The notes below the pieces were generated by a model. It ran no database searches. It was not told the DNA's origin and was given only the letters and a program-made list of their open reading frames with translations. A DNA stretch of 64,000 nt. Source: Luteibacter flocculans (lineage in GTDB: Bacteria; Pseudomonadota; Gammaproteobacteria; Xanthomonadales; Rhodanobacteraceae). The DNA is taken from contig NZ_CP063231.1 in the NCBI RefSeq assembly GCF_023612255.1, positions 2,648,001 through 2,712,000 on the forward strand, read 5' to 3'. The number at the start of each line of letters is the position of its first letter. Position 1 is the stretch's first letter. Below are positions 27,924 through 31,954 of this stretch, piece after piece. Position numbers and translations under genes: made by a program.

Positions 27924-29414
27924 TCAATGCCCCGCTTCAGCGGATGCACCTTCCTTGTGGTGCGTACCCAGCCGGTCCACGAGTCCAGCGCTTGCTGCGT
28001 TCAATCCGATGACTTCCACGTGCTTGCCCTCCCGGCGGAACTTGAATACCACGCGATCCAAGGCATTGACGGCGGTGAGGTCCCAGAAGTGCGCGTCCGT
28101 CACATCCAGACGCACATGACTGATGTCCTCTTCCTTGAAATCAAACAGTTCGCCGAAGGCTTCGGACGAGGCGAAGAAGACCTGGCCGGTGACGGTATAG
28201 GTCCGCACGTGACCATCCGATGCCACGGAGCTATCGACATCCAGCGCCTTGCCGACCTTGCGCGCGAAGAAGACGGCCGAAAGCAGCACACCCGTGAGCA
28301 CACCCTTTGCGAGATCGTGCGTGGCGACCGTCACCGCGACCGTGCCCAGCATCACGACGCTGGATACCGTGGGATGGGTTCGGAGACTCTGGATGGAACG
28401 CCAGTTGAAGGTGCTCAGGGAGACCATGATCATCACCGCCACCAGAGCCGCCATGGGAATCTGACGGACCAGAGGCGAACCGAAGACCACAAGCACCAGC
28501 AAAAGCGCGCCAGCGACCATGGTGGAAAGGCGACCACGGCCACCAGATTTCACGTTGATTACGGACTGGCCGATCATGGCGCAGCCGGCCATGCCACCGA
28601 TGAAGCCCGTCACGATGTTCGCGACGCCCTGCCCGATGCATTCGCGATTCTTGTCGCTGCGGGTATCGGTCATGTCGTTGACGATCTGCAACGTCATCAT
28701 CGATTCGAGCAGACCTACCACCGCAAGCGTCGCTGCCGTCGGCAAGATGATCCTGAGCGTATCGAGAGTCCACGGAATGTCCGGCATCGATAAGCTCGGC
28801 AGAGCGTCGGGCAAGGCACCCATGTCGCCCACGCGGTGAATATCCATGTGGAAGTACATCGCCACGCCCGTCAGGACCATGATCGCTACCAGTGGCGACG
28901 GAATGGCCTTGGTGACGTACGGAAACAGATAGATGATCGCCAGGCCGGCAGCGGTCATCGGATAGACCAGCCACGGCACACCGATCAATTCAGGCAGTTG
29001 GGCCATGAAGATAAGAATGGCCAGTGCGTTGACGAAGCCGGTGATCACAGAGCGGGATACGAAGCGCATCAGCGCACCGAGCTTGAGCGCGCCTGCCACG
29101 ATCTGGATCAACCCGGTCAGTATCGTGGTGGCAAGCAAGTACGCGAGCCCGTGCTCCTTGACCATGGTCACCATCAACAGCGCCATGGCACCGGTCGCCG
29201 CTGAAATCATCGCGGGACGCCCACCAGCAATCGAAATCACCACGGCCATGGAAAACGACGCGTAGAGTCCGACCTTAGGATCGACCCCAGCAATAATGGA
29301 AAACGCGATGGCTTCGGGAATGAGAGCGAGCGCCACGACCATGCCGGACAGGATGTCGCCACGCACGTTGCCCAGCCACTGCTGGCGCAGTTGCGAAAAA
29401 GAATTCAAGACCAT
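27924..29414 (-). CDS. SulP family anion transporter with STAS domain
   Basis: 496 residues, inner membrane. The N-terminal [20 protein letters not shown] is the SulP helix-1 signature, and the C-terminal cytoplasmic STAS domain starts around residue 395. Members carry sulfate, bicarbonate or other anions; the substrate cannot be read here. ATG at 29414 is preceded by GAGGAA and by a hairpin-rich leader. Same strand as the fluoride operon but 356 bases downstream of it and with its own promoter-like -10 element. Confidence 0.88.
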
Positions 29415-29770: not shown

Positions 29771-30094
29771 TTACGATTGATCGGCTCCGAGCCTGCCAAA
29801 TTCGACTTGACTGCGGCAATAGAAAACATCGATGTTCTCTTCCGCAATCGCGGCCATCAGTGCCTCGCAGGTTGGCTCATCGGTGACCACCGAAACCGTC
29901 ATGGGGCGGTCGGCCATTTCGAAGAAGCCCGCCGAGTGGATCTTTCCCGAGTGCCCGAAGCCCTCCCCTCCCGCGGTCATGGTGCCGCCCGCAGCCCCCA
30001 ACTTCCGTGCGCGCTGAAGGATCCATTGGGCGACCGTATCGCCGTGGATGGTGCGGTTTTCTTGAGTGAAAAACAGAATCCGATAACCTTTCAT
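29771..30094 (-). CDS. DUF190 protein, second copy in fluoride operon
   Basis: 107 residues. MKGYRILFFTQENRTIHGD, then AAGGTMTAGGEGFGHSGKIH and FFEMADRPMTVSVV, are the DUF190 signatures; the family is predicted to adopt a PII-like ferredoxin fold and often sits next to CrcB fluoride channels. GGAGA precedes the ATG. Twelve bases after the other DUF190 gene on the same strand, so it belongs to the riboswitch-controlled operon. Biochemical role unknown. Confidence 0.85.
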   Translation of the reverse strand: MKGYRILFFTQENRTIHGDTVAQWILQRARKLGAAGGTMTAGGEGFGHSGKIHSAGFFEMADRPMTVSVVTDEPTCEALMAAIAEENIDVFYCRSQVEFGRLGADQS

Positions 30095-30106
30095 CGTGGG
30101 GGTCTC

Positions 30107-30478
30107 CTAAGCGGGGGTAGCAGCAAGATCAGGTGTCTCACACGAAAGTATCAGCACCCGAACTTGCTGAAGTTCGGCCGCATGATCGACCAGGAACGAC
30201 TCCACGATCTCGCGGCGATCCACCAGTTCCAGACACTGCGGATGGTCCATCGAGACAGCATCCGGATGATGGTGTGACAACCGTTGCCCCTTGAGGTATC
30301 CCATTTCTACGTGGTGAAGAATGGCCTGCTCAATGCCAGCCCGCCGCGCCACCTTAAGCAGATGGTGTGCGAGCGCCGGCGCGCTTAGGCGATGCCAAAA
30401 CCGCGAGCGACTGGCGCGGGCCGAGACAGGAAAATAAAGACGGGCGACAACGAGATCGCGCATGGGCACTCCGCTCAT
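30107..30478 (-). CDS. DUF190 protein, first copy in fluoride operon
   Basis: 123 residues, more diverged than its neighbour: AHHLLKVARRAGIEQAILHH and MGYLKGQ align with the DUF190 core, then ECLELVDRREIVE-like and VRVLIL strands. It is His-rich in the middle (RLSHHHPDAVSMDH). The ATG at 30478 overlaps the CLC stop (ATGA), so it is translationally coupled; MRDLVV at 30463 is an alternative start. The pairing with a second, different DUF190 suggests a heteromeric PII-like unit; that is inference. Confidence 0.8.
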   Translation of the reverse strand: MSGVPMRDLVVARLYFPVSARASRSRFWHRLSAPALAHHLLKVARRAGIEQAILHHVEMGYLKGQRLSHHHPDAVSMDHPQCLELVDRREIVESFLVDHAAELQQVRVLILSCETPDLAATPA

Positions 30479-31791
30479 GATTTGGGGACTTCCGTGGGTT
30501 GCGTATCGCGCTGGCGACGCCGGTAGGCCGGCAGGTCGCTTAGCCGAAGGTCTTCGGGCAGGTGGCGCAGGTGCTTGGCGCGACCCAGCCGCTGTGCGTG
30601 GTAGATGCCGTTGTGCCCCGAAAATAGGTAGCTGGCCACGCAGGCGATGGCTGCAAAAGGAGCGATCGCAGAACCGAAGAGTTCAATGGCCATGACGGTG
30701 GTGGCCAAGGGCGTGTTGGCGGCCCCTGCGAAAACGGCCACAAAGCCCAGTGCCGCCAACATGCCGAATGGCAGATGAAGCAACGGGGCGAGGCTGTTGC
30801 CCAGAGTGGCGCCAATGAAGAAAAGCGGAGTTACCTCCCCACCCTTGAACCCAGAGCCCAGCGAGGCCGCGGTGTAACCAAACTTGCCAATGCTGTCCCA
30901 CCACGGCAGCGGATGGTCGAAGGCGGCGACGATGGTGGGGATGCCCAACCCGATGTAGGCCTGGGTGTGAAACAGATAGACCGACCCCGCAATGACGGCG
31001 CCGCCGATAAAGGGCCGCAACGGTGGGTAGCCGATCAGCCGCTTCATCCAAGCCCCTACCCGATGGGTCGCTGTAGCAAACAACAAGCCCACCAAGCCAA
31101 AAATGATTCCCGCGACGATGACGGAAAGCACCGTCCAGCCCGTCACGGGGGCCACAGAGCCCATGACATATCCAGTGTGATGGACACCCCAGGCCAGGCA
31201 CACCCGGTCGGCAACGATGGCTGCAATGACGCAGGGAAACAGGGCGTCGTAACGGAGCCGTCCGATGGCCAGGACTTCCAAGCCGAACAGTGCGCCGGCC
31301 AGTGGCGTGCCGAAGACAGCGGCGAAGCCGGCGCTCATGCCTGCCATCAACAATACCCTTCGGTCCTCTGGACTGAGCCGAAATGCGGCGGTCAGTTGGT
31401 CTGCGAGGGCGCCCCCCATTTGGACCGCGGTCCCTTCGCGGCCTACCGATGCTCCAAATAGGTGAGACATCACCGTACCGATGAAGACCAACGGCACCAT
31501 GCGCAGAGGAATGACCTTCTTGGGGTCGTGGATCTCGTCAATGATCAGGTTATTGCCGGCCTCGACCGGCTTCCCCAGTCGGAAGTAGACCCAGCCCACG
31601 ACGAAACCCGCGACTGGCAAGAGCGCCAAAAGCCAGGACGTGGCCTGCCGGGTCCGTGTGGCCCAGTCCAGACTCAGGAGGAACCAGGCAGATGCCGTTC
31701 CGGCCAACACCGCGGCAACCATGGCAATCAGCAGCCATTTGCCGATGTAACGGAGGAGTTCCCATTGTTCGAGAGAGCTAAGCGCGCGCAT
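30475..31791 (-). CDS. CLC-F type fluoride/proton antiporter
   Basis: 438-residue CLC-superfamily membrane protein. At the ion-binding loop, canonical Cl- transporters have GSGIP; here it is GNNLI (residues 79-83). The gating-Glu loop reads GREGT (Glu119), not GREGP. Both are features of the CLC-F subclass that exports fluoride; Asn at this place suggests the Asn subclade. A fluoride riboswitch precedes it, which makes the assignment strong. Heads an operon with two DUF190 genes. Confidence 0.9.
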   Translation of the reverse strand: MRALSSLEQWELLRYIGKWLLIAMVAAVLAGTASAWFLLSLDWATRTRQATSWLLALLPVAGFVVGWVYFRLGKPVEAGNNLIIDEIHDPKKVIPLRMVPLVFIGTVMSHLFGASVGREGTAVQMGGALADQLTAAFRLSPEDRRVLLMAGMSAGFAAVFGTPLAGALFGLEVLAIGRLRYDALFPCVIAAIVADRVCLAWGVHHTGYVMGSVAPVTGWTVLSVIVAGIIFGLVGLLFATATHRVGAWMKRLIGYPPLRPFIGGAVIAGSVYLFHTQAYIGLGIPTIVAAFDHPLPWWDSIGKFGYTAASLGSGFKGGEVTPLFFIGATLGNSLAPLLHLPFGMLAALGFVAVFAGAANTPLATTVMAIELFGSAIAPFAAIACVASYLFSGHNGIYHAQRLGRAKHLRHLPEDLRLSDLPAYRRRQRDTQPTEVPKS

Positions 31792-31798
31792 GGAGTAT

Positions 31799-31846
31799 CC
31801 AGGTCGGAGGAATCACCTGGGCCGGGCGTAGCACGCGTGCCTACAT
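31799..31846 (-). promoter_or_regulatory. Expression platform of the fluoride riboswitch
   Basis: ATGTAGGC, complementary to plus 31839-31846, can pair with GCCTACAT at the aptamer's 3' end (31863-31870), giving an alternative stem that competes with the aptamer. Closer to the gene, CCAGGT and ACCTGG (31815-31820 and 31799-31804) form a hairpin whose 3' arm abuts the start region of the antiporter (ATG at 31791). There is no U-tract, so control of translation is more likely than termination. Pairing is seen; mechanism is inferred. Confidence 0.6.
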
Positions 31847-31862
31847 CCCCGGAAGCCAGGAC

Positions 31863-31918
31863 ATGTAGGCATCATCAGCCCCGTTACGGGGCGGTTCGCG
31901 GAGGAATGCCATCTCCGT
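31863..31918 (-). promoter_or_regulatory. Fluoride riboswitch aptamer (crcB motif)
   Basis: Read on the minus strand: GGAGATGGCATTCCTCC, then GCGAACCGCCCC, then GGGGCTGATGATGCCTAC. These match in order the conserved parts of the fluoride aptamer (GATGG...CC, AACCGCC, CTGATGAYGCCTAC), with the P1-like stem GGAG/CTCC and the CCCC/GGGG stem intact. It lies 72 bases before the CLC-F start codon on the same strand. Confidence 0.95.
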
Positions 31919-31925
31919 GCCGAGC

Positions 31926-31954
31926 AGCGTAGGGGCTGACCGAAAGGTCGTCAA
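31926..31954 (-). promoter_or_regulatory. Sigma70-like promoter of the fluoride operon
   Basis: Minus-strand TTGACG (31949-31954) and TACGCT (31926-31931) separated by exactly 17 bases. The start site predicted 6-8 bases downstream falls at the first bases of the fluoride aptamer, as expected for a riboswitch leader. From here to about 32220 I see no other gene or site. Confidence 0.7.

Follow-up and report, generated by a model that had tools for sequence, protein, structure and literature searches.

Fluoride defence has so far been described in terms of exporters and riboswitches, and an operon that we analysed in Luteibacter flocculans, within a window of 64,000 nucleotides, can be set beside four kinds of described system. 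It is like the riboswitch-controlled CLC-F antiporters in its upstream aptamer, in the motifs GNNLI, GREGT and GEVTP, in its best PDB match (6d0j) and in showing similarity of the 60% class to no Cl- transporter, and unlike them in carrying two DUF190 genes, one of which (D1) comes from a CLC-F-specific clade. With crcB-DUF190 operons it shares the DUF190 branch to which the second gene (D2) belongs, whereas here the operon contains no crcB and D1 falls outside that branch. SbtA-SbtB, GlnK-Amt and other PII-like regulators resemble it in the predicted fold of D1 and D2 and in the position of the gene beside a transporter gene; here, however, the putative target would be a CLC antiporter, and sequence identity is low. 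Finally, the Enterobacter cloacae FRM fluoride island (ppaC, uspA, eno, gpmA, crcB, orf5249) is likewise riboswitch-controlled, according to the portion of the source available (PMC5533749); compared with that island, the window holds the export part only and is chromosomal. The operon as a whole is of a known kind, but we did not find a CLC-F-specific PII-like DUF190 partner described in a partial full-text literature that leaves out most subscription papers and the supplements of Baker 2012 and Stockbridge 2012. A search of this literature returned no paper linking DUF190 to fluoride, the text matches being DUF1908 or similar strings, and no combination of DUF190 with crcB, and the available part of a review of fluoride exporters (PMC11139923) does not mention DUF or unknown-function proteins.

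The operon is read on the reverse strand from 31954 to 29771, and comprises a probable promoter, a fluoride aptamer, the CLC gene and the two DUF190 genes (Table 1). The CLC stop and the D1 start overlap by 4 nt, and D1 and D2 are spaced by 12 nt. This gene order, overlap and spacing had been given in a preliminary description and were confirmed from the coordinates, while its reading of the locus as a riboswitch-controlled fluoride operon encoding a CLC-F exporter and two DUF190 proteins is supported by RF01734, Pfam and the CLC-F signatures. The same description had noted the lack of a CrcB, which holds for the operon and not for the genome. Across its 4.3 Mb, the host genome has one fluoride riboswitch and, in a whole-genome search, no DUF190 genes besides D1 and D2; its single crcB lies outside the operon (C1:842593-843045), with no riboswitch match in the 10-kb stretch surrounding the gene. 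This crcB (region C1:841427-843045) adjoins, without DUF190 or riboswitch, a gene assigned by Pfam to the CMAS (cyclopropane synthetase-like) type. Both exporter types occur together in only ~3% of surveyed strains, as reported in the available part of the review (PMC11139923). Downstream of D2 lies a gene for a SulP-type permease with a STAS domain (27924-29414, reverse strand). We rejected this gene as an operon member, since it is 356 nt away and is not kept in relatives: tblastn at E 1e-5 against 10 CLC loci from the genus and 41 further D1 loci, each spanning a few kb, found no SulP copies. Outside that set, the plasmid pEL-ars1 carries a SulP gene 5.6 kb from a CLC-D1 pair.

Table 1 Features of the fluoride operon, in order of transcription (positions in the window)
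Feature	Position	Strand	Basis
Probable promoter, TTGACG (31954-31949), 18 nt, TACGCT (31930-31925)	31925..31954	(-)	Read from sequence
Fluoride riboswitch aptamer RF01734	31859..31925	(-)	cmscan 55.7 bits, E 9.8e-13
Hairpin A, proposed expression platform, 15 pairs	31838..31871	(-)	Conservation and limited covariation, 11 leaders
Alternative helix, CCUGG (31860-31856) with CCAGG (31820-31816)	31816..31860	(-)	11 leaders
Hairpin B, CCAGGU/ACCUGG, just 5' of the start codon	31799..31820	(-)	Minimum-energy fold
CLC-F type fluoride/proton antiporter gene, 438 aa	30475..31791	(-)	Pfam Voltage_CLC, PDB match, signatures
D1, CLC-F-linked DUF190 protein, 123 aa	30107..30478	(-)	PF02641, own clade, CLC linkage, model
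D2, CrcB-type DUF190 protein, 107 aa	29771..30094	(-)	PF02641, nests among CrcB-linked DUF190s, model

The CLC protein scored 254.9 bits against Pfam Voltage_CLC. It contains GNNLI and GREGT, as previously noted, and GEVTP in addition, matching the CLC-F signatures listed in the portion of the review available (GNNLI/GMGLI, GREGT/V and GEVTP; PMC11139923). Its best PDB relative, the CLC-F antiporter 6d0j, was found at E 3.9e-61, and the first Cl-/H+ CLC among the PDB matches, 1kpl, at E 8e-14. By motifs and nearest relatives, the gene thus encodes an antiporter of the CLC-F type, which would expel fluoride against protons.

Upstream of this gene, the aptamer earlier placed at 31863-31918 proved to be RF01734, reaching from 31925 to 31859 and clearing the family's gathering score of 34 bits. 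The promoter, earlier placed at 31926-31954, is plausible but weak, because a strict consensus scan returned nothing at this site (with 1.0 match expected by chance) and conservation across 11 congeneric leaders is partial: in the -10 element, T, A, C and T never vary, and at -35 TTGAC is common without being universal. Between aptamer and start codon we identified three helices that could couple fluoride binding to expression. Hairpin A and the aptamer overlap at AUGCC, the 3' side of the aptamer helix, and would be competing structures. In the 11 leaders, 95.8% of its 165 cells were paired, as against 26-51% for slid versions; two of its pairs were changed on both sides, a number reached by 31 of 500 shuffles, and its count of pair types did not exceed that of shuffles, 494 of 500 of which were as high. 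Hairpin B may mask the ribosome-binding site. The CCUGG/CCAGG helix, which was paired in 55 of 55 cells with zero covariation and emerged in a fold calculation when the aptamer helix alone was forced, would open hairpin B. On our proposal, bound fluoride would prevent hairpin A from forming, so that CCUGG could pair with CCAGG and open hairpin B 5' of the start codon. For this switch the fold calculations fall short of proof: the aptamer-forced fold (-47.1 kcal/mol) is 11 kcal/mol costlier than the unforced one (-58.1 kcal/mol) in a model that excludes pseudoknot, magnesium and fluoride, and next to the start codon it has UGGA paired with UCCA, so that it shows no open ribosome site. On this proposal, fluoride entering the cell would cause the riboswitch to permit CLC-F expression, most likely because the ribosome-binding site becomes accessible. 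Control of transcription by termination instead of translation is in our estimation the less likely mode: transcriptional fluoride riboswitches are well known (PMC11077080, seen in part), but none of the six terminator-like sites listed falls in the leader, and the leader hairpins finish near the start codon.

The two DUF190 proteins differ in their relation to the family. Against PF02641, with a Pfam cut-off of 23.4 bits, D1 scored 28.2 bits and D2 56.6 bits; among 28 D1 proteins, 21 match the profile at E 0.01 and seven miss it. We pooled 168 DUF190 domains from the window and from fetched loci, some genes being counted twice, and assigned to the D1 class those matching a D1 profile at >=109 bits (51 domains), the remaining 117 having no match at E 1e-4. 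Within this pool, 49 of the 51 D1 domains directly follow a CLC gene. The two exceptions are L130, where D1 follows a tandem D1 copy, and L114, where the CLC gene is broken by an IS66 element, identified by its transposase families; the end of CLC and the start of D1 survive the insertion. None of the 117 other domains directly follows a CLC gene (44 come after CrcB, 27 after D1 and 46 after neither), and D1 was never a direct CrcB neighbour without CLC in the pooled loci. In a tree of 128 distinct DUF190 sequences, which has few columns for its 128 rows and a very long D1 stem, the 37 D1 sequences form one clade (support 100/100; 200/200 bootstrap trees). As 49 of 51 D1 domains and none of the others directly follow CLC, and as D1 is a single clade, D1 is, as far as gene neighbourhoods and phylogeny can tell, tied to CLC-F and no general fluoride protein.

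The preliminary description had suggested a genome-context search for riboswitch-CLC-DUF190 sets, and such sets were found. A D1-only sequence search of 84,980 genomes gave 34 loci, with a CLC gene upstream of D1 in 33 and a fluoride riboswitch preceding CLC in 31 (in L105 by about 570 nt). The loci without a riboswitch are L102, at a contig edge, L108, where the CLC 5' part and leader are missing, and L114. The CLC/D1 overlap is a 4-nt ATGA in 25 of the 33 loci, and 16 of these 25 are Pseudomonas-type copies that hardly differ from one another, one of them under the label Streptomyces. Downstream of the CLC-D1 pair, 11 of the 34 loci have CrcB-D2, 19 have D2 alone, one has D2 fused to D1 and three have neither. 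The linkage also held in an independent sample of 398 Pseudomonadota genomes, which includes several short contigs and a disproportionate share of one alphaproteobacterial family. PF02641 matches occurred in 97 of these genomes and a similar CLC (E 1e-30) in 15, one of which (G306) lacks CLC-F signatures; D1 lies beside CLC in 6 of the 15, and all seven D1 domains have a CLC within 1 kb. Likewise, a family-level survey gave, among the matches listed, a D1-type match in 10 of 233 genomes at 11 loci, all directly after CLC; each of the eight family loci L194-L201 has a riboswitch upstream.

D1 is also carried by plasmids, with matches in 59 of 72,556 records, most commonly from Klebsiella, Pseudomonas, Paraburkholderia, Citrobacter and Enterobacter. 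An annotated chloride-channel gene overlaps 29 of these 59 matches, and CLC lies directly upstream of D1 in each of the eight records examined, two of which come from outside Pseudomonadota (Emticicia, Bacteroidota, where an in-frame stop splits the D1 gene, and Ca. Manganitrophus, Nitrospirota). On the conjugative plasmid pEL-ars1 (L266), the CLC-D1 pair sits between a fluoride set (crcB, mutase, eno, universal-stress and DHHA2 genes) and an ars operon. Separately, fluoride islands were seen in two related genera (L050-L053; G029 contig 4 and G031 contig 40), with 8 riboswitch matches in 27 kb and 7 in 29 kb, one per island below the gathering score; nearby genes encode pyrophosphatase, enolase, DUF190 and NADH-dehydrogenase/hydrogenase-like membrane subunits.

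The remainder of the DUF190 family is only partly associated with fluoride exporters. The statement that DUF190 genes commonly lie next to crcB applies to part of the family: within 1 kb, 24 of 103 non-D1 domains in the Pseudomonadota sample have CrcB alone and 6 have CLC (4 of them with D1), but 73 have neither. In sister genera (L046, L049, L054-L056, L058-L060), DUF190 comes after crcB and, in many cases, before a gene of the cyclopropane synthetase-like kind (by Pfam in L055, by eye in the others). Elsewhere, a non-fluoride DUF190 adjoins heavy-metal-type RND efflux genes (L222, L144 and L250; Pfam ACR_tran in L144, the others by eye), and the Caulobacter Zur regulon lists a DUF190 gene next to czrA in the part of the paper available (PMC4176598). 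In one alphaproteobacterial family (f49, L070-L091), a DUF190 clade has no CrcB or CLC neighbour, and a Crp-like gene adjoins in L089 and L076.

By its place in the tree, D2 is a DUF190 of the CrcB type. It nests among CrcB-linked DUF190s, in an 18-row set made up of 11 D2s that follow D1 and 7 proteins that follow CrcB, and here the gene directly upstream of D2 is D1 and not crcB. It is probable that crcB was lost here from a CLC-D1-CrcB-D2 operon, and the pattern across loci fits more than one such loss, although the order of events may have been the reverse. Since D2 is kept here and in other lineages without an adjacent crcB, it appears independent of one channel type.

Both proteins are predicted to adopt a PII-like fold, in the case of D1 from a model of moderate confidence (mean pLDDT 74.7, with two loops <50). 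In Foldseek searches, the D1 model matched the DUF190 structure 2dcl (E 2.9e-5), SbtB in the SbtA-SbtB complex 7egk (2.1e-4) and 1o51 (3.3e-4), with CutA, GlnK and CPII among its lower matches; among its six best matches there is one protein outside the PII-like class, CTB10. The D2 model (pLDDT 86.4) matched 2dcl (6.3e-7), 1o51 (1.1e-6), CPII (2.7e-5) and SbtB (7.6e-5). An alignment of D1 proteins revealed two conserved elements, an insertion (FWH-LSAP) and a loop (GYL-G---SHHHPE); the loop we infer to lie at the position of the T-loop of PII proteins, in a part of the model of low confidence. SbtB tunes SbtA and GlnK tunes Amt. PII-like proteins are typically trimers, and 2dcl has three chains, whereas CLC proteins are dimers, so a simple cap in the style of GlnK-Amt would be a misfit. 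In another setting, DUF190 proteins have been suggested to modulate channels, in the part of the source available (PMC3543383).

Gene fusions provide a further view of these partnerships. L269 and L272, two Ca. Manganitrophus records with 2000 nt of identical sequence, each have CLC and D1 in one open frame of 610 codons, and in a third (L273) indels break both the CLC and D1 parts and the junction is still open. These records are MAG plasmids, and their D1 part is not recognised by Pfam; it retains its own ATG, so separate translation is possible. The Dyella locus L105 joins D1 to D2 in a single 257-aa frame whose linker has no start codon, a fusion found in one genome only among the matches listed.

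Taken together, we consider it probable that this is a fluoride-induced export operon in which D1 is a PII-like partner that tunes CLC-F and D2 is a leftover CrcB-type PII-like protein. D1 would be a dedicated cytosolic partner of the antiporter, produced through coupled translation of their shared mRNA, and by analogy with SbtB for SbtA and GlnK for Amt we propose that it binds the antiporter and modulates its activity. D2 would be a second PII-like protein, the remnant of a CLC-D1-CrcB-D2 operon minus crcB, and would probably work with D1. More tentatively, D1 could be a CLC-F-specific PII-like regulator that senses some signal in the cell, such as adenine nucleotides, magnesium or a fluoride complex, via its GYL-G---SHHHPE loop and gates the antiporter.

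D1 might instead be an assembly or stability factor that senses nothing and is delivered to new antiporter by coupled translation. This account explains equally well why D1 is so strictly linked to CLC, why the two genes overlap and why they occur fused in an open frame, but we hold it to be unlikely, because a PII-like fold points to ligand-dependent regulation and because Luteibacter CLC-F without D1 works, if those genes are functional. D1 and D2 lie beside three of the 11 Luteibacter CLC-F genes and are absent from the other eight, in whose loci a tblastn search at E 1 found no D1 or D2 remnants, and on the CLC tree the D1 state changes at least six to eight times. Both are thus accessory and not needed by CLC-F, and so D1 would refine CLC-F while being dispensable for it. 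Less likely still is a single hetero-oligomeric regulator with the D1-D2 pair as its working unit. The fusion in Dyella speaks for it, as does the fact that Luteibacter and Pseudomonas retain both genes together where crcB has been lost; against it, D1 lacks a nearby D2 in 3 of 34 loci (L094, L101, L124), and 7 of 8 further family loci show D1 without D2 directly after it. That D1 and D2 are general fluoride-stress proteins for which exporter type is irrelevant, the view of the preliminary description, accords with the occurrence of D2 with both CrcB and CLC-D1 and with its persistence without crcB, but is improbable given that D1 follows CLC almost throughout the pooled loci, never adjoining CrcB without CLC, and that most non-D1 DUF190 domains in the Pseudomonadota sample lie away from both exporters, some by an RND efflux gene. 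As D1 and D2 differ, that earlier inference must be split: it does not stand for D1, which belongs to a CLC-tied clade, and stands in part for D2, which is kept without an adjacent crcB.

In light of these analyses, the idea of two interchangeable DUF190 helper genes is corrected, and DUF190, a family of unknown function, gains a concrete candidate partner in CLC-F. That one subfamily tracks a single exporter type across many genera and enterobacterial plasmids suggests a second layer of control or a missing subunit. If the more tentative reading of D1 as a signal-sensing regulator is true, fluoride exporters would have PII-like signalling proteins of their own, and export would be controlled post-translationally as well as by the riboswitch.
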